Source: Bacillus sp. Bos-x628
Lineage (GTDB): Bacteria > Bacillota > Bacilli > Bacillales > Bacillaceae
Direction: 5' to 3'
Assembly (NCBI RefSeq): GCF_040500475.1
Contig: NZ_CP159358.1
Coordinates: 2,294,001-2,358,000, forward strand
DNA length: 64,000 nucleotides
This document shows, piece after piece, positions 30,749 to 39,709 of this stretch. Below the pieces are notes generated by a model that was not told the origin of the DNA, did not search any database, and worked only from the letters and a program-made list of their open reading frames with translations. The position numbers and the translations under genes were made by a program. Each line of letters begins with the position of its first letter. The stretch's first letter is position 1.

Positions 30749-31006
30749 ATGAAATCACCACGTCTACTGTCTTTGATAGAAGTCGTGTCTGTGCTTGGTT
30801 TGTTTTTCGCAAACGTTTTATCATTTACTCATTATTCACCGTAATATTTTCTTATTAGCTACACTTGTGATATGTGCCATTATGTCTATTGCAACAGGGG
30901 CTTCTTGAGGCGTGTCCACATTCGAGGTTAAGCTTTGTTACAATGGGTCTTGCGATTATTTACGGGTACACAGGTCAATTCATTTGGATCAACAAATAGA
31001 GAAGAA
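30749..31006 (+). pseudogene. decayed small membrane protein gene
   Basis: AAGGAAGG precedes an ATG at 30749 and the frame MKSPRLLSLIEVVSVLGLFF up to a stop at 30842. The next frame continues NIFLLATLVICAIMSIATGA to a stop, and a third gives RLSFVTMGLAIIYGYTGQFI before a last stop just past 31000. Joined, these make a three- or four-helix membrane protein of about 80 residues. Two frame changes mean it is not functional in this strain. A T-tailed hairpin follows at 31037-31064. Family not recognised. Confidence 0.5.
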
Positions 31007-31036
31007 TCGGCCCCGTATAAGCCGTTTGAAAAAGTA

Positions 31037-31065
31037 AGTCACTCCTGATCGAGTGGCTTTTTATT
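31037..31065 (+). terminator. terminator after the decayed membrane gene
   Basis: AGTCACTC and GAGTGGCT pair with one wobble around CTGATC, followed by TTTTATT. Confidence 0.7.
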
Positions 31066-31323
31066 GTCCTAGGACTTGATAACTATTCGTTATACATAGA
31101 AGGGGAATGTGATTTTAGACCCCCTATAAATAAGGGCTAAAGGTGTAGCGTATGGCAGATTAAAAGCATATTTATGACAGAATAAGAGTATAAATACCTA
31201 TTTAAACATGAGTCTTTGAACCTTATAATAACAATATTGGAAAAAGTGCTATTCACCATTGCGCTCGTTTAGATCTATCTCTAAGCAGCGTTTTTATTTT
31301 TTAGACAGGAGGGAGGAACCCTT

Positions 31324-31749
31324 ATGAGCTTATCGGACATGCTTTCTGCCCTTAACGGTGGTATCTCAAGTAAACAAACAGAAATAGAAGAGAAAATAGC
31401 TCGACTAAAAAAAGCGAAAAGCAATGTGGAGAAAGAACAAGATGCGGCAGAAACAGACTTAAAGCAAATCAAGCAGCCAAAGCTTGGGACCTCTTGGAAA
31501 GGTGAGAGAAGCCAAGATTTCAATTCAGAGCGAAATGAAGCACACAATGCGCTACAAACGATCGTAAATGAACAATATCCTCGTTATGTAAGCCGTATCG
31601 AGTTTAAGATCAGTACATTAGAAGCCGAACTAGCAACGTTATCCTTTGCCAGTTCCTTAGCTGGAGATGCGGCACGTCTTGCTGAAAAAGGGGAAGACGC
31701 AGTGGAAGATGCAAAACGTTTGATCTCAAAAGCATGGAGTAGCTTGTAG
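31324..31749 (+). CDS. YwqH-like DUF5082 protein, LXG-toxin accessory type
   Basis: A 141-residue all-helical protein resembling B. subtilis YwqH (DUF5082). Two long coiled helices, SKQTEIEEKIARLKKAKSNV and NEAHNALQTIVNEQYPRYVS, flank a central turn containing SWKG, a WXG-like motif. Such proteins are encoded just before LXG polymorphic toxins and, by analogy with LXG-associated proteins, pair with the toxin for export by the type VII secretion system. GGAGGGAGG precedes the ATG. It is followed by a DUF5344-type gene but no toxin gene in this window. Confidence 0.8.
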   Translation: MSLSDMLSALNGGISSKQTEIEEKIARLKKAKSNVEKEQDAAETDLKQIKQPKLGTSWKGERSQDFNSERNEAHNALQTIVNEQYPRYVSRIEFKISTLEAELATLSFASSLAGDAARLAEKGEDAVEDAKRLISKAWSSL

Positions 31750-31796
31750 AGCTACTTTACTAGCGGTTACATGAACAAATTTGGAGGATATCATAA

Positions 31797-32060
31797 ATGG
31801 GACAAATTAAGTTAAACAATCAATTAGTCATGGGAAAACTAGATGAAGTCACGCAAGCAGTAGAAGCCTTAATGATGAAAAAAGCATCAGATAAAGTTGG
31901 TGAAAACAGTTTGGAGTTTGTGTCAAAGTGGACAGTGCGTGAAGCTAAGATCAATGAAACGGTCTCTGCTTTTAAGAAGGCCCTCATCAAAAATGTCCAA
32001 GATACACGCTCCAATGTGAAGACCTTAAAAGAACAAGACGAAGCGATTGCTGCAAAATAA
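31797..32060 (+). CDS. YwqI-like DUF5344 protein, LXG-toxin accessory type
   Basis: An 87-residue helical protein resembling B. subtilis YwqI/YxiC. It is predicted as a helical hairpin, KLDEVTQAVEALMMKKASDK and NETVSAFKKALIKNVQDTRS, the size and shape of a WXG100-like partner. GGAGG lies 8 bases before the ATG. In B. subtilis the order is ywqH-ywqI-ywqJ (LXG toxin)-ywqK (immunity). Here the third gene is missing and another ywqH-type gene follows after 278 bases. Confidence 0.78.
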   Translation: MGQIKLNNQLVMGKLDEVTQAVEALMMKKASDKVGENSLEFVSKWTVREAKINETVSAFKKALIKNVQDTRSNVKTLKEQDEAIAAK

Positions 32061-32338
32061 AGCAGGACACATTCATTCATTTTTGACATGAAGTGAAATG
32101 ATAAATATAGACCTAAAGACTTATATAAGATTCGTGTTTTATGGCTTTGATTTATTCCTTTTCCCTTCCAAAAATCTCGTTAAAAGGAAACCTTTTTCCT
32201 ATTTGAGACTAAGGCTTTTCGCCTTATACTATAACAGGAAGCGAACGATAGAAATCAATAGAAAAAGTAGGTGCGCTTGCTAGATTCAATTGTTTCTTAC
32301 GGAGTGCTTTCGTAAGATGTCCAATAGAGGTGGATGAC
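32061..32338 (+). other. spacer between the ywqI-like gene and the second ywqH-like gene
   Basis: About 280 bases where an LXG toxin would be expected. No long frame is open. An AAAAGG/CCTTTTT hairpin (about 32178-32194) and a TCTTACG/CGTAAGA hairpin (32295-32317, just before the next ribosome binding site) are visible. Confidence 0.4.
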
Positions 32339-32764
32339 ATGAATTTATCCGAGATGCTTCATCATTTGCATATGGGGATTGAAAACAAACGTGCGGAATT
32401 TGACGAAATGATCTCTCGGCTAAAGACAGCAAAAAGCAATATTCGTACAGAACAAGGTCTTGCGCAGTCAGACATAACGGAAATTGAGAAGCCTGCTCTT
32501 GATTCGTCATGGAAGGGTAAAAGGGGAGCAGACTTTCATTGCCTTCGGAAAGAGGCCTACAGTGCCATGCATCACATTGTGAACAATGAGTATGAACAAT
32601 ACATCACTGAAATTGACCAAAAAATCATGCACTTTGAATTGAAGAAAATGGAGCTTGCTGTCGCAAGTAACTTTGCGGGTAGAGCCCAGGATGTCATGGA
32701 AAAGGGCGAAGATTTTGCAATGGATGTAAAACAATTGATTGAACGGGGCTGGAAAGCTCTTTAA
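32339..32764 (+). CDS. second YwqH-like DUF5082 protein
   Basis: A 141-residue paralogue of the gene at 31324, the same length and laid out the same way: MNLSEMLHHLHMGIENKRAE against MSLSDMLSALNGGISSKQTE, SSWKGKRGADF against TSWKGERSQDF, and AMDVKQLIERGWKAL against VEDAKRLISKAWSSL. AGAGGTGG lies 5 bases before the ATG at 32339; the GTG at 32330 would overlap it. It points to a tandem duplication of an LXG module followed by loss of the toxins. A terminator follows. Confidence 0.78.
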   Translation: MNLSEMLHHLHMGIENKRAEFDEMISRLKTAKSNIRTEQGLAQSDITEIEKPALDSSWKGKRGADFHCLRKEAYSAMHHIVNNEYEQYITEIDQKIMHFELKKMELAVASNFAGRAQDVMEKGEDFAMDVKQLIERGWKAL

Positions 32765-32773
32765 TGAAATAAA

Positions 32774-32806
32774 TGGGCAGCCGTCTATAGTGGACGGTTG
32801 TTTTTT
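32774..32806 (+). terminator. terminator after the second ywqH-like gene
   Basis: CCGTC and GACGG with extra flanking pairs around TATAGTG, followed by TTGTTTTTTC. Confidence 0.7.
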
Positions 32807-32854
32807 CATGTTTCTCATCTTTTGTCACATCTACCGCCGCCAATACTATCTCCA

Positions 32855-33013
32855 TTACATGAAGCGTCGTGTGCAAGATGGTGCATTGTTTGGTCTGTAC
32901 ATAATGAAAATGATTCTGATCAGATAAGGAAATTCTTCATTTGGTCTTAAGAATGATCTGATTAAAAGGATGAACAACAAGAGAATACAGCCGATAAAAA
33001 AGATAGTAAACAT
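32855..33013 (-). CDS. small single-helix membrane protein
   Basis: A 52-residue frame, MFTIFFIGCILLLFILLIRS followed by a polar, Arg-rich tail ending CTRRFM. GGAGAG lies 5 bases before the ATG at 33013. It is convergent with the ywqH-like gene. No family recognised; it could be an immunity-like or merely fortuitous small gene. Confidence 0.4.
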   Translation of the reverse strand: MFTIFFIGCILLLFILLIRSFLRPNEEFPYLIRIIFIMYRPNNAPSCTRRFM

Positions 33014-33507
33014 GTGATCTCTCCGCATAATTGCTTCTATACATGTGATACGATTAAAAAGAATAGAAGTTCCGATCACTTCTTCATAAAAGTATGGTTG
33101 AGTCTGTTATCATCACACATACAGAAAGAGAAGGATAATTTATAAATGATAAGGAAAAATATTTTTTTATTGTCGGCATTACACCGAGTCTTTCACCAGA
33201 AAGCTTTGGCAGGCTGGTGAGGGGAATTCTTAGATTTTAGATCATAAATGTTCCACATGAAACATTTTACGACAAGTTTCACTATAACGAATCAATCGTT
33301 CAAATCAACTCCCCTTTTACATCAAATACGTTTTTACTAAATCAGAAACAGAAAATAATTAATCCCTTTAATCGACAATTTTTTTCACCTCAAAAATAAG
33401 TTTTTTATGATCAAGATAAATTGTAGTGATCCCCTATAAATTGTTTCCTTGCAATAGGATTTTTTATTTCAAGTGACTATTGCTAGGTTTTTCACCATTT
33501 AAATAAA
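33014..33507. other. long AT-rich intergenic region with a parS-like site
   Basis: About 490 bases without a convincing gene. A short frame after AGAAGGA at about 33145 stops after 24 codons, and an alternate frame there reads VGITPSLSPESFGRLVRGIL, perhaps a gene remnant. The parS-like site at 33249-33264 is the only strong motif. Confidence 0.4.
33249..33264. other. parS-like ParB/Spo0J binding site
   Basis: TGTTCCACATGAAACA differs from the B. subtilis parS consensus TGTTCCACGTGAAACA at one base, in the central CG. It lies in non-coding DNA of a region that in B. subtilis is close to oriC, where parS sites cluster. Whether ParB tolerates the change is unknown. Confidence 0.5.
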
Positions 33508-33540
33508 AGAGCTTGTAGACAAAATCTACAAGCTTTTGTT
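33508..33540 (-). terminator. terminator of the dioxygenase-ribA-ribD operon
   Basis: AGCTTGTAGA and TCTACAAGCT form a perfect 10-bp stem around CAAAA; on the minus strand CTTTTATTT follows. It starts 3 bases after the ribD stop. Confidence 0.8.
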
Positions 33541-33542
33541 GT

Positions 33543-34634
33543 TCATTGATAAACGGGATAACCTGTTATTTTGATATCTTTCCCCAATTGTTCAATGGTG
33601 AGCTGATCAAGTTCAATCGCATCACTCATCAGGCTTATGCCTTCGCCTCCGAAAAAGGAAGGGGATTGTTGTCCGCCGATGAGTTTAGGTGCCATGTAGA
33701 TGACAAGTTTATCAACGAGCTGCTGCTCTAAAAATGAAGCATTGACTTGTCCGCCGCCCTCAATCATCAGTGAGGAGATGTTCTTTTCTCCAAGCACCTG
33801 CAGTACGTCCTGTAAAAGCACTCGATGCTCTCCACCTGTCATAAAGACCTTTACGCCAGTTGCTTCTAGTGCTGCTCGTTTCTTCTCATCAGCTCGCTTC
33901 GTTGTAAAAATCCATGTAGGGGCAAGCTGATCGGTAACGACCTTTGCCGTTGGCGGTGTGGAGAGTGTAGAGTCTAAAATGACCCGTATCGGATGATGCC
34001 CATTTGGAATCCGAGCGGTTAAAGATGGATCATCATGAATAACGGTATTGGCACCAACCAAAATCGCATCATTGATACTGCGTATGTGGTGAGCGTCATA
34101 ACGTGAAGCCTCTGATGTAATCCATTTGCTGTCAGAAGTAGCCGATGCAATTTTCCCATCTAGTGTGATGCCCGCTTTTAACGTCACGAAAGGTGTTTTC
34201 TTCGTTATAAAATGATTAAACACTTCATTCATATGGATGGATTCCTGCTCACATACACCTGTGATGACTTGAATGCCTGCCTCTTGTAAAATAGCGATTC
34301 CGCGACCAGCTACAAGTGGATTAGGGTCGAGTGCCGCAACCACAACAGTTTTGACACCGGCTTTTACAAGTGCTTCAGCACAAGGACCTGTGCGCCCATG
34401 GTGTGAACAAGGCTCTAGTGTCACATAAATCGTTGCCCCTTTTGCTTTTTCTCCAGCCATTCTAAGTGCATGAATTTCAGCGTGGGGTTCGCCGGCTTTC
34501 ATATGAGCACCGACGCCCACAATCTCATTATTTCGCACAATCACAGCCCCAACAAGCGGATTCGGTGATGTCTGTCCTCTCATCGCCTGTGCATTTTCAA
34601 GGGCCAGCTTCATATATCGCTCATGATGTGGCAA
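33543..34634 (-). CDS. ribD: bifunctional riboflavin biosynthesis deaminase/reductase RibD
   Basis: Second and third steps of riboflavin synthesis: deamination then side-chain reduction of the pyrimidine made by GTP cyclohydrolase II. Residues 1-145 are a cytidine-deaminase fold with zinc motif PHAEIHAL and PCSHHGRTGPCAEAL (His, two Cys, Glu); residues 146-363 are a DHFR-like reductase with TLKAGITLDGKIA and LMIEGGGQVNASFL. All key residues are present. It starts with TTG at 34634, behind AGAGGTG, overlapping the end of ribA. The main rib operon is not in this window, and ribE and ribH are absent here, so this looks like a paralogous copy. Confidence 0.92.
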   Translation of the reverse strand: MPHHERYMKLALENAQAMRGQTSPNPLVGAVIVRNNEIVGVGAHMKAGEPHAEIHALRMAGEKAKGATIYVTLEPCSHHGRTGPCAEALVKAGVKTVVVAALDPNPLVAGRGIAILQEAGIQVITGVCEQESIHMNEVFNHFITKKTPFVTLKAGITLDGKIASATSDSKWITSEASRYDAHHIRSINDAILVGANTVIHDDPSLTARIPNGHHPIRVILDSTLSTPPTAKVVTDQLAPTWIFTTKRADEKKRAALEATGVKVFMTGGEHRVLLQDVLQVLGEKNISSLMIEGGGQVNASFLEQQLVDKLVIYMAPKLIGGQQSPSFFGGEGISLMSDAIELDQLTIEQLGKDIKITGYPVYQ

Positions 34635-35382
34635 TTGTACGCACCTCTTGATCCGCTTTTATGTGACCTGAGCGGTTAATTTTTGTTTGCAAGTATTTTT
34701 CATTGAATTCTGAAACATCCCCCCAAAGCGGAATACGTCCAGAAAGTGAGAGGCCTGCATGACTGATGGCATCTGTTTTTTTCGGATTATTTGTAATGAG
34801 TCTCACTGGTTTTGTGCGCAAAGTTTGAAGGACGGCGATCGCTTCTTCATATTGACGTGTATCATCCTCAAAGCCCAGCGCTTCATTTGCTTCCACTGTG
34901 TCATAACCATTTTCTTGAAGAATATAAGCCATGGCTTTGCTGAAAAGACCAATGCCGCGACCTTCATGGTTGGCTAAATAAAATAATGCACCAGCGCCAT
35001 TTTCCTCAATCATGCGCATTGATTGTTTCAATTGGAATCCACAATCGCAACGTTTGCTCCCGAAAATATCGCCAGTATGGCAGATGGAGTGCATGCGAAT
35101 GAATGCTTCGTCGGCATTTTCGAAATCTCCATATACAAGGACGCTAGATTGCTGGTGATCTGCCAGCTGTCGAGAAGAGAGGCTTTCAATGAGAGCTTCA
35201 TCTGACAAAGCTTCTTTTCCCTCGTCCTTTAACCAAGAATACCATTTGAACATAACTGTTCTGCCGTCCAAGTTGATTGGCAGTTGAATAGGTCCAGTGA
35301 TATATATATAACCATCATCTTGTTGTACTCGTTTGATTTTATCTTTTAAAATGGCTGTTTTCAGATCTGTCTGTTTGTCCAT
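34621..35382 (-). CDS. ribA: GTP cyclohydrolase II (RibA)
   Basis: Opens the imidazole ring of GTP, releasing formate and pyrophosphate. The 253 residues have the zinc-binding CDCGFQL preceded by GDIFGSKR, NHEGRGIGL, VEANEALGFEDDTRQY and RLITNNPKK, so it is likely active. Residues 1-55 differ from a normal RibA, and there is no DHBP synthase domain such as the RibBA of Bacillus rib operons has. The ATG at 35382 has GAAGGTG 7 bases upstream and lies inside the dioxygenase gene. Middle gene of an overlapping three-gene operon. Confidence 0.9.
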   Translation of the reverse strand: MDKQTDLKTAILKDKIKRVQQDDGYIYITGPIQLPINLDGRTVMFKWYSWLKDEGKEALSDEALIESLSSRQLADHQQSSVLVYGDFENADEAFIRMHSICHTGDIFGSKRCDCGFQLKQSMRMIEENGAGALFYLANHEGRGIGLFSKAMAYILQENGYDTVEANEALGFEDDTRQYEEAIAVLQTLRTKPVRLITNNPKKTDAISHAGLSLSGRIPLWGDVSEFNEKYLQTKINRSGHIKADQEVRTIATS

Positions 35383-36253
35383 GTTCTGCACCTTCTTTTT
35401 TGTCTATTTCTTCAATCTGTAAACGAACGCGAATGCCAAATGGATCAACAAATTCGTTACTTTTTTCTATCGTTTCTACGTGAATGCCTGCTTCTGTCAG
35501 ACGCTCTACGACGGATTGTCTGTCTGTTTCTTGTGGAAAAATGAGCGTATAGCTTCTAATCCCTGAAAAACTTGGATCAATGGCTCCTTTTCTTCCGCCT
35601 CCCCATGCATTAAAGGCAAGGTGGTGATGATACACACCATATGCGATAAATAGACTCGCTGGCGGAGCCATTCGGATATGAAAACCGAGCGTGTCCACAT
35701 AAAATGTATTGGCTTCCTCTGGATTGAGATGGAAGTGCAAATGTCCCATGACTGTGCCAGCGGGGAGTCCTTCCCATGTGGAATCGGCTGCTTCTTGCAT
35801 GAGACCATCTCCATCAAGCGGTGCATTTCCGCCACCTTTCAGTTCTCCATTTTCGCCTAACCAAATGTCCTTAGGGCGGTCAGCATATATTTCAACACCA
35901 ATGCCGTCAGGGTCACTTAAATAAATGGCTTCACTGAAATAGTGATCGCTTGCTCCAATTAAAGGATAGCCTTTTTTGATCACATGTGCCAGCCATGTGC
36001 CTAGGTTTTTTCTGGCAGGTAATAAAATAGCTAAATGATAAAGCCCTGGCTCATGATCAGGCTTCTTCTTCAAATGCACGTCTTCTTTAAGGAGGAGAAT
36101 AGGTTCCTTTGCATTGTTTCCAAGTGTGATAGTTGAATCTGTTTGTTCTAATAACGTGAATCCTAAAATCTCTGTATAAAAAGGCAAGGAACGCTCAAAG
36201 TTGGAAACATGTAATTCTGTTAAACCTAATGTTAACTCCTCAATCATATTCAA
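35339..36253 (-). CDS. CatE-like two-domain VOC family dioxygenase
   Basis: A 304-residue protein with two tandem vicinal-oxygen-chelate domains, like catechol-2,3-dioxygenase CatE. Domain 1 starts LGLTELHVSNFERSLPFYTE and has GLYHLAILLP; domain 2 has the metal-site His in GHLHFHLN and YHHHLAFNAWGG and ends near the Glu region ETIEKSNEF. Ring cleavage of a catechol or hydroquinone is expected; substrate is unknown. The C-terminal 45 residues after QIEEIDKKEG are polar and overlap ribA. TTG at 36253 follows GGGAG by 10 bases. First gene of the operon, divergent from an HxlR repressor. Confidence 0.86.
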   Translation of the reverse strand: MNMIEELTLGLTELHVSNFERSLPFYTEILGFTLLEQTDSTITLGNNAKEPILLLKEDVHLKKKPDHEPGLYHLAILLPARKNLGTWLAHVIKKGYPLIGASDHYFSEAIYLSDPDGIGVEIYADRPKDIWLGENGELKGGGNAPLDGDGLMQEAADSTWEGLPAGTVMGHLHFHLNPEEANTFYVDTLGFHIRMAPPASLFIAYGVYHHHLAFNAWGGGRKGAIDPSFSGIRSYTLIFPQETDRQSVVERLTEAGIHVETIEKSNEFVDPFGIRVRLQIEEIDKKEGAEHGQTDRSENSHFKR

Positions 36254-36340
36254 GCCCGGTCATCTCCCTCATGTGATATGCATTGGCATGTTTAAATGTT
36301 TTTAAATAGCTATTGTAAATGTATACCTTGTTACTTTTAG

Positions 36341-36362
36341 TAACTAAACTATATAATAGTTA
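36341..36362. promoter_or_regulatory. inverted repeat in the divergent catE-like / HxlR region
   Basis: TAACTA and TAGTTA are separated by 10 bases, and a second overlapping repeat GTTAC/GTAAC lies at its left side (36330-36345). AACTATATAATAG inside it could hold a -10. It is the likely operator of the HxlR regulator for both genes. Confidence 0.5.
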
Positions 36363-36431
36363 GTGACTTATTTCAAGTAATTAATTATGTTATAATGAAA
36401 AAAAGTGGAGAAAAGCAGGAGGGAGCAAGAA

Positions 36432-36764
36432 ATGCCTCAAGTAGACAGATGTCCAATTACAGATGCTATGGAGATTCTAGGGAAGAAATGGGTGATTCTG
36501 ATCATCAATCAGCTTCTGACAGGACCCAAACGGTTCTGCCAGTTGGAAAACGAAATGAAAATTAGCGGACGACTATTATCCGAAAGGCTGAAGGATTTAG
36601 AAGCTGAAGGACTCGTTGAGAAAAAAGTATACCCAGACATTCCGGTGCGGATTGAGTATGAATTAACGGAGCAAGGAAAGAAAGTTGAACCTGTCATCCA
36701 AGAAATGTATTCATGGTCTGTGGAGAGGCAAAAAAGCAGAAAAGGCGAACACTTGCCTTCTTAA
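36432..36764 (+). CDS. HxlR family regulator, CatR/YodB-like
   Basis: A 110-residue winged-helix repressor: DAMEILGKKWVILIINQLLT, GPKRFCQLENEMKISGRLLSE and the wing KVYPDIPVRIEYELTEQGK are the HxlR signature. Cys7 in DRCPITDAM is at the position of the redox-sensing cysteine of YodB (Cys6) and CatR (Cys7), which respond to diamide and quinones. It is divergent from the catE-like operon, so it probably represses it until an electrophile modifies the thiol. The ATG at 36432 has AGGAGGGAG upstream. Confidence 0.88.
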   Translation: MPQVDRCPITDAMEILGKKWVILIINQLLTGPKRFCQLENEMKISGRLLSERLKDLEAEGLVEKKVYPDIPVRIEYELTEQGKKVEPVIQEMYSWSVERQKSRKGEHLPS

Positions 36765-36766
36765 TC

Positions 36767-36800
36767 AATTTCGATCAGTCATACTGATCGAAATTTTTTT
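36767..36800 (+). terminator. terminator of the HxlR gene
   Basis: AATTTCGATCAG and CTGATCGAAATT form a 12-bp stem around TCATA, followed by TTTTT. Confidence 0.85.
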
Positions 36801-37293
36801 GTGCGATGTTCCAGAATTCTAAGTCAATTTTTCCATGAATTATGATTGGACAGATTGCTTAAAAACAATGTGTGTATCAAATCATCAGCGAAATACAGAC
36901 ATCTTTGCCGCTTTGGATGCAAAGGTTTATTTTTCAGCGTGTAGACAAACTTTCAAGAAAAACGAAATGAATCAAGCCGTTGTAGACAGAACATCGCACT
37001 GCTTTTTGCGGTTCATTCCATTCTGTCACATATTTTTGACAAAGTAGTCAAATAACTGACACAATACCATCCAATTTTTAGGTAAAATTTACTTTATTTT
37101 TGAATCGTATGGGTGTAAAGTACAGGTATAAATAACTAACCGAATGAAAAGAAAGAGTAAAATTTCACTAGTAACGCCATTTCAGATGTACTCTTATTTG
37201 TGAAATATTGAACAAACAGTGCGTTTTTTGTGAAATGGTGAACATAGTGATTCCGAATCATTCGGCATATGAAAGTAAGGGAGATGTAAAGCT
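36801..37293 (+). promoter_or_regulatory. cydABCD leader with two Rex-like dyads
   Basis: About 490 bases without a convincing gene. TTGTGAAATATTGAACAA (37198-37215) and TTGTGAAATGGTGAACAT (37228-37245) are two copies of one motif exactly 30 bp apart, related to the Rex site TTGTGAAnnnnTTCACAA with two or three mismatches each. A TTTCAC half-site is at 37163-37168. In B. subtilis cydABCD is repressed by Rex (YdiH) through several sites, released when NADH/NAD is high. The exact promoter is not clear. Confidence 0.55.
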
Positions 37294-38706
37294 GTGAGTG
37301 AGTTGTTTTTAGCAAGATTTCAATTTGCCTCAACGACATTATTTCATTTTATTTTTGTTCCTATGTCTATAGGGTTGGTCTTTATCGTCGCATTGATGCA
37401 GACCCTCTATGTTGTAAAGAAAAAAGACATTTATAAAAAAATGGCGAAATTCTGGGGACACCTTTTCTTGATCAACTTTGCAGTAGGTGTGGTCACAGGG
37501 ATACTGCAAGAATTTCAATTTGGGATGAACTGGTCTGATTACTCACGGTTTGTCGGTGATGTATTTGGTGCACCGCTTGCTATTGAGGCACTACTAGCCT
37601 TCTTTCTAGAGTCTACATTTATTGGGCTTTGGATTTTTGGTTGGGATCGTTTGCCGAAGAAAATTCATTTATTGTGCATTTGGCTTGTTTCCCTTGGTAC
37701 GATCTTTTCGGCGTTTTGGATTTTATTAGCTAACTCATTTATGCAGGAGCCGGTCGGATTTGTCATTAAAAATGGCCGTGCAGAAATGAATGACTTTGGG
37801 GCACTTGTCACCAATCCGCAGCTCTGGGTAGAATTTCCGCACGTACTGTTCGGTGCACTTGCTACAGGCTCCTTCTTTATTGCGGGTGTTAGTGCGTATA
37901 AAATGATCAAAAAACAAGAAGTAGCCTTTTTCAAAAAATCATTCCAGCTTGCAATGGTTCTTGCTTTAATTTCTGGCTTAGGTGTTGCGTTCTCTGGACA
38001 TGATCAAGCAAAGCATTTGATGAAATCACAGCCGATGAAGATGGCAGCAAGTGAAGCCCTTTGGAAGGATAGCGGGGATCCAGCTGCATGGACACTATTT
38101 GCCAATATTGACACAGATAAGAAAGAAAACTCTGGTGAAATCAATATTCCTTTTGCTTTAAGTTATCTGGCTTATCAGAAATTCAGTGGAGATGTTCCAG
38201 GAATGCTGTCACTTCAAAAGGAATATGAAGCAAAGTATGGTCCAGGAGATTATATCCCACCAGTGAAAACGACGTTTTGGAGCTTTAGAATCATGGTAGG
38301 TTCAGGTATGCTCATGATTTTTGCCAGTATGTTTGGATTGTACTTGAGTTTTAGAAAGAAACTTGAATCAAACAAATGGTATTTACGTTTCATGGTTTGG
38401 ATGATAGCTTTCCCATTTATTGCGAATTCAGCAGGGTGGATTATGACGGAAATTGGGCGTCAGCCGTGGACTGTTTTCGGCATGATGACAACGGCACAAT
38501 CAATCTCGCCAAACGTTTCATATGGCATGCTTCTCTTCTCAGTTATTAGCTTTACGACTATTTATCTGATTCTTGCAATTGTGCTGGTGTACTTGTTTGT
38601 TCGTGAAATTAAAAAAGGTGCACATTCTGAAGACAAATATCTAAAGAATGAAACGGACCTATCTACAGATCCATTTGATGGAGGCGCATATCATGGCATA
38701 TCTTAA
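37294..38706 (+). CDS. cydA: cytochrome bd ubiquinol/menaquinol oxidase subunit I
   Basis: Haem-bearing subunit of the high-affinity terminal oxidase, 470 residues and nine membrane helices. His18 in ARFQFASTTLFHF (haem ligand), the second ligand His in the QVEFPHVLFG-like segment VEFPHVLFGALA, the quinol-site GRQPWTVFG and a short Q loop (VPGMLSLQKEYEAKYG) typical of Gram-positive bacteria are visible. It starts with GTG behind GGGAG. First gene of cydABCD. Confidence 0.95.
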   Translation: MSELFLARFQFASTTLFHFIFVPMSIGLVFIVALMQTLYVVKKKDIYKKMAKFWGHLFLINFAVGVVTGILQEFQFGMNWSDYSRFVGDVFGAPLAIEALLAFFLESTFIGLWIFGWDRLPKKIHLLCIWLVSLGTIFSAFWILLANSFMQEPVGFVIKNGRAEMNDFGALVTNPQLWVEFPHVLFGALATGSFFIAGVSAYKMIKKQEVAFFKKSFQLAMVLALISGLGVAFSGHDQAKHLMKSQPMKMAASEALWKDSGDPAAWTLFANIDTDKKENSGEINIPFALSYLAYQKFSGDVPGMLSLQKEYEAKYGPGDYIPPVKTTFWSFRIMVGSGMLMIFASMFGLYLSFRKKLESNKWYLRFMVWMIAFPFIANSAGWIMTEIGRQPWTVFGMMTTAQSISPNVSYGMLLFSVISFTTIYLILAIVLVYLFVREIKKGAHSEDKYLKNETDLSTDPFDGGAYHGIS

Positions 38707-39709
38707 TGAGATTTGGTTTATGCTTGTCGCAGTTTTGTTTGTTGGGTTTTTCTTTTTAGAAGGGTTTGATTTCGGTGTAGGTATGTCCATGCAGCTACTT
38801 GGTCAAAACGCACATGAGCGCCGTATTTTAATAAATACCATCGGACCATTTTGGGATGCAAATGAGGTCTGGCTCATTACAGCAGGCGGGGCAATTTTCG
38901 CTGCATTTCCTCACTGGTATGCCACGATGTTTAGCGGGTACTATATTCCGTTTACCGTTCTTTTGTTAGCACTCATAGGGCGAGGGGTCGCCTTTGAGTT
39001 TCGAGGAAAGGTTGAGAAAGCCTCTTGGACCAAAACTTGGGACTGGGTGATCTTCTTTGGTAGCCTGCTTCCGCCGTTTTTACTAGGTGTTTTATTTACA
39101 AGCATTTTACGCGGAATGCCGATTGATCAAAGCATGAATATGTACGCTGGTTTCACAGACTTTGTGAATCTCTATTCGTTGATTGGCGGCGTGACGGTCA
39201 CAGTCCTATGCCTCCTGCACGGATTGATTTTCGTTACGCTTCGAACAGAAGGGGATTTAAAACAGCGTGCAAGAAAGCTCGGTCAGCGTGTATTGCTGAT
39301 TGCACTGCCACTCCTCGTCCTATTTGTCGGTGTGTCGATCAAGGAAACCGATATTTATACAGTGCGCCCGATCATCACCATTCCTTTAACTGTGCTGATT
39401 GTCGTCTGTTATGTAGCCGCATTTGCGTTCATGAAAAAAGAGCGTGATGGTTGGACATTCTTGTTCACAGGATCAGGCATCATGGTCACAGTAACGATGC
39501 TCTTTGCCGCATTGTTCCCGCGGGTGATGATCAGTTCAATCGATCATGCGTTTGACCTAACGATTCAAAACGCTGCATCAGGTTCTTATTCACTGACGGT
39601 GATGACGATTGTGACCATTTCTTTGCTGCCTTTTGTGCTTGGGTATCAAATATGGAGCTATTATGTCTTCCGTAAGCGTGTAAGCGGTAAGGAGCCAATG
39701 ACGTACTAA
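38693..39709 (+). CDS. cydB: cytochrome bd oxidase subunit II
   Basis: Partner subunit of CydA, 338 residues with eight or nine membrane helices. FFLEGFDFGVGM, IGPFWDANEVWLI and RGVAFEFRGK are CydB hallmarks. The ATG at 38693 (GGAGG 7 bases upstream) overlaps the cydA end by 14 bases, showing translational coupling. Confidence 0.95.
   Translation: MAYLNEIWFMLVAVLFVGFFFLEGFDFGVGMSMQLLGQNAHERRILINTIGPFWDANEVWLITAGGAIFAAFPHWYATMFSGYYIPFTVLLLALIGRGVAFEFRGKVEKASWTKTWDWVIFFGSLLPPFLLGVLFTSILRGMPIDQSMNMYAGFTDFVNLYSLIGGVTVTVLCLLHGLIFVTLRTEGDLKQRARKLGQRVLLIALPLLVLFVGVSIKETDIYTVRPIITIPLTVLIVVCYVAAFAFMKKERDGWTFLFTGSGIMVTVTMLFAALFPRVMISSIDHAFDLTIQNAASGSYSLTVMTIVTISLLPFVLGYQIWSYYVFRKRVSGKEPMTY

Follow-up and report, generated by a model that had tools for sequence, protein, structure and literature searches.

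The main sensor of catechol at the catDE genes of Bacillus subtilis is CatR, which acts there alongside YodB and Fur, as described in the available portion of PMC6212828. Most riboflavin genes of Firmicutes, and with them ribU, are controlled by flavin mononucleotide (FMN), according to the accessible part of a survey (PMC3766115). The splitting of RibBA was reported in 2016 for Bacillus pumilus SAFR-032 (BPUM_2060, BPUM_0700 and BPUM_3531) and for a list of other species, in a paper whose text, as far as available, returned no ribD, ribG, HxlR, dioxygenase or toxoflavin in a word search (PMC4924849). Among the literature matches listed, judged by title and start of the abstract, none concerned an HxlR/VOC-ribA-ribD operon; among 10 matches listed in one search, the word toxoflavin occurred only in a list of predicted traits in the available part of PMC12542870. 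We analysed a stretch of 64,000 nucleotides (the window; C1:2294001-2358000 of a 3.33-Mb genome in 3 contigs) from Bacillus sp. Bos-x628, a member of the B. pumilus group, in which the genes for a VOC-family protein, a stand-alone guanosine triphosphate (GTP) cyclohydrolase II (RibA) and RibD lie next to the gene of an HxlR/DUF24 family regulator. We think it probable that this is a chemical-stress-type operon which encodes the first half of the riboflavin pathway, is the housekeeping source of that half in its clade, and is under thiol-sensing control by HxlR.

The VOC and ribA genes overlap by 44 bp and ribA and ribD by 14 bp on the minus strand, and hxlR is divergent from them. This layout, with a cysteine at position 7 of HxlR, had been described in an earlier sequence-only reading, and all four genes were found in place. 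In profile searches, RibD passed the curated score of TIGR00326 (416.4 bits, cut-off 156.35) with both the deaminase and the reductase domain present, and it aligned over nearly its full length to the solved RibD 2b3z (E 1e-123) with the catalytic motifs retained. RibA passed NF001591 (197.8 bits, cut-off 148), stayed under the 205.85 cut-off of TIGR00505 (186.7 bits), and matched both PF00925 and the solved structure 2bz0; it has an N-terminal extension of about 70 residues and keeps the Cys residues of the zinc/catalytic motif HS.C.TGD...RCDCG. The earlier statement that it is not a bifunctional RibBA was borne out by profile search and by genome comparison. HxlR contains the winged-helix domain PF01638 (99.7 bits, cut-off 20.8). 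Its closest solved relative is YodB (5hs7), whose cysteine aligns with Cys7 and is presumably the redox residue Cys6; the mechanically called reading frame begins at a GTG (36405), and the best start is the ATG at 36432, which puts the cysteine at position 7. By profile and solved relatives, RibA, RibD and HxlR are clear and intact family members, from which the enzyme activities discussed below are predicted; the VOC protein has the least certain family assignment of the four.

In the source genome, PF00925 and PF01872 each occur at two places, the window and C1:1520118-1524549. The second place holds, in reading order, a methyltransferase (best solved match, the methyltransferase 5ufm), a RibA paralog, an FGE-like protein, a WD40 protein and a RibD paralog (C1:1520043-1526012; L003:4044-10013), which we take to be the toxA to toxE set of toxoflavin clusters. 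The window RibA is 45% identical to the toxB-type paralog over 215 residues and the window RibD 54% identical to the toxE-type paralog over 351; toxA-, toxC- and toxD-type matches, present in the second cluster, were not found in the window by tblastn. The genome contains two FMN riboswitches, at C1:372966 and C1:392196. Downstream of the first are ribE, a stand-alone ribB and ribH, with ribD absent there, and the sole 3,4-dihydroxy-2-butanone 4-phosphate (DHBP) synthase of the genome lies at C1:374004; the gene after the second looks, by sequence, like the riboflavin transporter ribU. No match to the genome's own RibE, RibB and RibH was obtained in the window (tblastn, E ≤ 1e-4), in agreement with the earlier observation that ribE, ribH and DHBP synthase are missing from it. 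The separate, complete rib operon envisaged in the sequence-only reading thus exists in part: an FMN riboswitch, ribE, ribB and ribH are there, whereas ribD and the cyclohydrolase are missing. The same reading held that, if the genome had no other ribA or ribD, the locus would simply be the split riboflavin pathway; the other copies lie only in the toxoflavin-type cluster, so this is largely what it is.

We then compared 44 genomes of the genus. The term clade is used here for genomes that lack RibBA and carry the window-type operon, a definition by gene content. RibBA was found in 27 of the 44 genomes and was missing in 17, all of which have window-type RibA and RibD adjacent, a stand-alone RibB, and an FMN riboswitch at a distance of 896-934 bp from this RibB. 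Assigned by score and spacing (only the source genome's own cluster was read), a toxB-type RibA occurs in 15/17 clade genomes and a full toxE-type RibD in 14/17, G034 having the toxB type and no full toxE type. Genomes G018 and G041 have neither type, so that the window pair is their only RibA and full RibD; because they hold no other copy and yet keep ribE-ribB-ribH, riboflavin synthesis needs this pair. An open VOC frame of at least 306 codons is present in 16/17 clade genomes; the frame is fragmented in G034, whose coordinates are those of Bacillus stratosphericus L018. In this strain (L018:7372-8762) the VOC gene is broken, RibA and RibD are intact, and the 16.8-kb locus contains no HxlR; the operon of this strain is a natural example in which the stress half has been lost. 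Since RibBA is missing, the pair is present in 17/17 genomes, is the sole copy in two of them and is intact in L018, it serves the clade as a housekeeping component of riboflavin synthesis. The two genes supply the first half of the usual pathway and not of a second product: a dedicated second pathway was rejected in view of the separate toxoflavin-type cluster and the two sole-copy genomes.

A scan with the window RibA of one genome per species (84,980 species) gave 182 relatives, of which the best 80 were kept. These are 10 clade loci and 70 others, nearly all with Bacillales names (one carries an Arthrobacter label and one is a Bacillota metagenome-assembled genome), and related genomes are not independent in the counts. 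Whole genomes were counted for 35 of the 80 loci, chosen by hand, with a full RibD defined as a match above 150 bits (38 matches); lower-scoring matches to RibD_C, for the most part short RibD_C-like proteins, were left out. RibBA was present in 20/35 genomes, and in each of these an FMN riboswitch lies no more than about 3 kb away from it. Full RibD was found only at the riboswitch in 6 genomes, only beside stand-alone RibA in 28 (two of which also have a toxE-type extra RibD) and at both in 1; toxE-type extras set aside, it therefore occupies one kind of place in 34/35 genomes. When the HxlR locus contains RibD, no other housekeeping RibD is present (14/14 genomes, toxE-type extras of L011 and L013 excluded), whereas all 10 genomes whose HxlR locus lacks RibD hold it elsewhere (14/14 vs. 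0/10; Fisher p 5e-7, uncorrected for kinship). In L037, L038, L040, L075 and L088, with RibD-less HxlR loci, RibD and RibBA are kept at the riboswitch (two operons were read, three judged by coordinates), and therefore the HxlR locus adds a spare, separately controlled cyclohydrolase.

Thirteen riboswitch operons, also chosen by hand, were read. Their order was ribD-E-BA-H in 4, ribE-BA-H in 3, ribE-B-H in 3 and ribE-B without adjacent ribH in 1, and in 2 a short RibD-like frame (about 150 residues) precedes ribE-B. These short frames (L106:1402 and L107:1670) lie directly 3' of the FMN riboswitches, in genomes with a full RibD elsewhere, and are remnants or stand-alone deaminase domains. In Neobacillus sp. 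SuZ13, a cobalamin riboswitch (L108:3676-3861) is found about 0.6 kb 3' of riboswitch-ribE-ribB, and ribH is not adjacent.

HxlR lies within three genes of RibA in 9/10 clade loci and in 24/70 others, so that the conserved neighbourhood proposed earlier does extend outside the clade. The 24 linked non-clade loci contain a flavin monooxygenase in 14 cases, VOC in 8, RibD in 13 and a phosphatase in 11; for the 46 loci without HxlR, 6 of which extend less than 2.5 kb upstream and are not judgeable, the counts are 0, 0, 39 and 34 (monooxygenase and phosphatase were counted by BLAST to the L037 proteins, PF01494 and PF06941). Aromatic-type enzymes therefore come with HxlR, and the RibA-RibD-phosphatase trio exists also without it. 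The fullest arrangements, of five to six genes, are those of L037 (L037:5221-9371), L041, L051 and L084, with HxlR, VOC, FAD monooxygenase, RibA, in part RibD, and an NT5C-type phosphatase; the latter, seen in most HxlR-less loci too, may be the enzyme that carries out the dephosphorylation in the riboflavin pathway. In L066, L076, L077 and L082, RibA is the only gene opposite the divergent HxlR, the palindrome (see below) is again present, and the cyclohydrolase would be the lone target. The locus labelled Arthrobacter beigongshangensis (L046) has RibA and RibD proteins that the trees place with those of Sporosarcina and Bhargavaea, and its label or assembly looks wrong.

The N-terminal Cys is kept in 33/33 RibA-linked HxlR proteins. 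Between the divergent genes we observed a palindrome (GTTACT-AAA-AGTAAC on the minus strand), identical in the 9 other HxlR-bearing clade loci, at the position where an HxlR inverted repeat over its own promoter is expected; it is a predicted, conserved site. The palindrome, with the core TTACT-N3-AGTAA, lies 3' of the operon's -10-like element after a 3-base gap, and in Mesobacillus and Neobacillus loci TTACTTACATAAAGTAA, exact in 17/33 linked loci, overlaps the TATAAT end. A looser form of the palindrome was present in 27/33 HxlR-linked stretches as compared to 2/214 background intergenic stretches (at least 100 bp long and more than four genes away from RibA). The TAACTA-N10-TAGTTA repeat of the sequence-only reading is present where it was placed, but it covers the -10 elements and was rejected as the shared operator; the element common to other genera is the neighbouring palindrome. 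The operon promoter layout is conserved among clade loci, although neither this promoter match nor that of hxlR carries weight by itself (6 such sites in the region vs. 7.9 in shuffles). Self-repression of hxlR is likely, because its own promoter-like site overlaps the same palindrome. No FMN riboswitch was found at 31000-39000 of the window; the only two RNA-element matches were both under the gathering score, and an RNA element near the operon was rejected.

Table 1. Features of the operon and of the divergent regulator gene (positions in the window; strand as read).
Feature	Position	Strand	Basis and remarks
ribD, bifunctional diaminohydroxyphosphoribosylaminopyrimidine deaminase / 5-amino-6-(5-phosphoribosylamino)uracil reductase, 363 aa	33543..34634	-	TTG start; TIGR00326
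ribA, stand-alone GTP cyclohydrolase II, 253 aa	34621..35382	-	ATG start; PF00925, NF001591
CatE-like VOC-family protein, probable ring-cleaving dioxygenase, 304 aa	35339..36253	-	TTG start; sequence alignment, AlphaFold2 model, fold search
HxlR/DUF24 family regulator, Cys7, 110 aa	36432..36764	+	ATG start preferred; PF01638
Intrinsic terminator immediately 3' of ribD	33510..33534	-	Folding z -4.08; 0/200 shuffles equally stable
Putative HxlR operator, GTTACT-TTT-AGTAAC on + strand	36330..36344	.	Conservation, enrichment
TAACTA-N10-TAGTTA repeat	36341..36362	.	Overlies both divergent -10-like elements; conserved in clade loci
Promoter-like site of VOC-ribA-ribD, TTGAAA-17-TATAGT	36348..36376	-	Ends 3 bases before palindrome; 10/12 matches
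Promoter-like site of hxlR, TTGTTA-18-TATAAT	36328..36357	+	Overlaps palindrome; promoter scan

The TTG start of the VOC gene recurs in the other clade loci inspected. Elsewhere in the window, upstream of the locus described here, the reading frames at 31324-31749 and 32330-32764 (141 and 144 residues) look similar by eye, a duplicated small-protein gene.

The window RibA and RibD cluster with the stand-alone type in the respective trees, separate from RibBA and riboswitch RibD; the RibD tree carries a long-branch warning, and the HxlR tree, with 106 columns, has too few for placement. A single closed group of the 35 rows concerned (34 linked plus L018) was rejected for RibA by the approximately unbiased (AU) test (p-AU 0.00013), and thus HxlR linkage has been gained or lost repeatedly: 7 changes were counted on the RibA tree and 5 on the RibD tree, each either a gain or a loss. 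A separate origin of the linkage in the clade and in Neobacillus/Mesobacillus was not upheld, as RibD of the two constrained together was tolerated (p-AU 0.124).

The VOC protein has a Glyoxalase/dioxygenase domain but matched NCBIfam catechol dioxygenase models only weakly (catechol_2_3, 20.8 bits vs. a cut-off of 320.2). H73, E121 and H173, candidate ligands of a 2-His-1-Glu metal site, are invariant across 50 aligned sequences of the 568 found, and a Glu in the last module of some relatives is missing in the clade protein. Its AlphaFold2 model (predicted local distance difference test score, pLDDT, 88.5; predicted template modeling score, pTM, 0.87) gave in fold search a template modeling (TM) score of 0.63 with 1zsw and 0.60 with 3oaj, a putative B. 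subtilis dioxygenase. Since TM was 0.55 with the hydroquinone dioxygenase 4huz and about 0.3 with classical extradiol dioxygenases, the modules seem to pair as in 1zsw, 3oaj and 4huz; the metal site may be formed by modules 2 and 3. The sequence search found 1zsw as the sole solved structure, and the relatives listed are CatE-like. In 25/27 other genomes of the genus, the best match was 37-43% identical and is presumably CatE, judged by its gene position.

These results suggest how the operon might work. RibA would convert GTP to the diaminopyrimidine, which RibD would deaminate and reduce; an unlinked phosphatase, here assumed, and then RibE, RibB and RibH of the riboswitch operon would complete riboflavin. 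As the clade's riboswitch operon is without ribD and the cyclohydrolase half of ribBA, the window pair serves as the housekeeping source. For the regulatory half we hypothesize, by analogy with YodB/CatR-type repressors, that HxlR on the palindrome over the transcription start restricts the operon, and probably its own gene as well, to basal expression, until a thiol-reactive compound (a quinone, a catechol product or diamide) modifies Cys7 and releases it. Derepression would raise together the CatE-like dioxygenase, which would open catechols, and the committed step of flavin synthesis, and the extra FMN and flavin adenine dinucleotide (FAD) would feed quinone-reducing flavoenzymes. HxlR may in this way sense the same compounds as CatR and YodB. 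Supply of flavin precursor during quinone stress, as first proposed from the sequence, agrees with the presence of HxlR and its conserved Cys, with the palindrome and with the cross-genus linkage; however, in the clade the pair would be the main route and no extra.

Several points weigh against this interpretation. Both toxB- and toxE-type paralogs are present in 14/17 clade genomes and could in principle be a backup. If the repressor is tight, an essential step controlled by it would require leaky expression, and L018, without HxlR in its locus, indicates that the linkage is not strictly needed; the clade RibA groups, with support of 86, with RibA proteins of Priestia that lack a neighbouring HxlR. 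Identity between YodB and the window HxlR is only 45% over 92 residues, and the signals of HxlR family members vary. By the pattern used, the palindrome is missing in 6/33 HxlR-linked loci, and near-identical clade members make up 9 of the 27 palindrome-positive and 9 of the 33 linked loci. In the source genome, TTACTNNNAGTAA is rarer than the reversed-pattern control (5 vs. 22 places), and because of this control its count gives the motif no support. Three of the 5 places are terminator-like repeats and 1 is coding, so that a regulon was rejected; the window site alone lies between divergent genes.

The alternative that survives best, although unlikely in our judgement, is that the pair is merely a relocated riboflavin step, with VOC and HxlR as passengers, or with HxlR answering another signal and flavin control incidental. 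This would explain why L018 keeps RibA-RibD with a broken VOC and no nearby HxlR, and why 46/70 non-clade stand-alone RibA loci (including those not judgeable) are without HxlR within three genes. However, HxlR is near RibA in 33/80 loci of several genera with a common palindrome, the linkage was gained or lost repeatedly, as the rejection of a single closed group indicates, and VOC and monooxygenase genes are confined to HxlR-linked loci. Less probable still is that the signal consists of catechol siderophores and iron, the operon degrading siderophore catechols and raising flavins for ferric reduction. In its favour, the repression of B. subtilis catDE by CatR, YodB and Fur is described as guarding against bacillibactin-derived catechols (PMC6212828), but VOC is missing in 16/24 non-clade HxlR-linked loci. 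Lastly, that the operon makes, and VOC cleaves, a toxoflavin-like pyrimidine-derived compound other than riboflavin, the non-riboflavin product of the sequence-only reading, is very improbable: the window proteins are related to the toxB- and toxE-type paralogs and TflA is reportedly a VOC enzyme that degrades toxoflavin, but the other ribA and ribD lie in a separate toxoflavin-type cluster, two clade genomes have the window pair alone and keep ribE-ribB-ribH, full RibD keeps to one kind of place in nearly all genomes counted, and the relatives of VOC point to CatE.

The arrangement is thus real, conserved and partly known; the enzymes are ordinary, the control is unusual, and the interest lies in the regulatory claim. 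Across the whole clade, the committed enzyme and RibD stand outside the usual FMN feedback and beside a different class of regulator. A broader proposal, to which we give slightly less than even chances, is that in several Bacillales lineages the committed riboflavin step has moved from FMN-riboswitch feedback to an electrophile repressor together with aromatic-detoxifying enzymes, as an inducible extra RibA in some genomes and the only source in others, whose riboswitch operon is without ribD and the cyclohydrolase half, by more than one switch. If the repressor answers electrophiles, a vitamin pathway would be tied to chemical stress, and flavin supply would be driven by this stress and not by the FMN level. 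Roseoflavin acts through the FMN riboswitch. Such control would bear on antibiotics directed at this riboswitch and offer a test case for an essential pathway that switches its regulator.

Among known systems, the loci of Mesobacillus, Neobacillus and their relatives, of the form HxlR-(VOC)-(FAD monooxygenase)-ribA-(ribD)-(HAD phosphatase), share with the window an HxlR gene divergent from a stand-alone-RibA operon and a similar palindrome at the -10; unlike many of them, the window operon is without the PF01494-type monooxygenase (14/24 linked loci) and the NT5C-type phosphatase (11/24). B. pumilus SAFR-032, in the available text of PMC4924849, has the same RibBA split as the clade. In B. subtilis ribDEAH, with its FMN riboswitch, the first steps are those of the window RibA and RibD, and the source genome keeps riboswitch-ribE-ribB-ribH; however, the window copies of ribA and ribD are not part of the FMN riboswitch operon, fall on a different branch in the RibA and RibD trees and stand beside an HxlR gene. 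As in B. subtilis catDE, described in the accessible part of PMC6212828, a catechol-dioxygenase-type VOC gene is under HxlR/DUF24 control, which for the window is predicted, whereas here the repressor gene is adjacent and divergent, no catD is seen, and two riboflavin genes are included in the operon.

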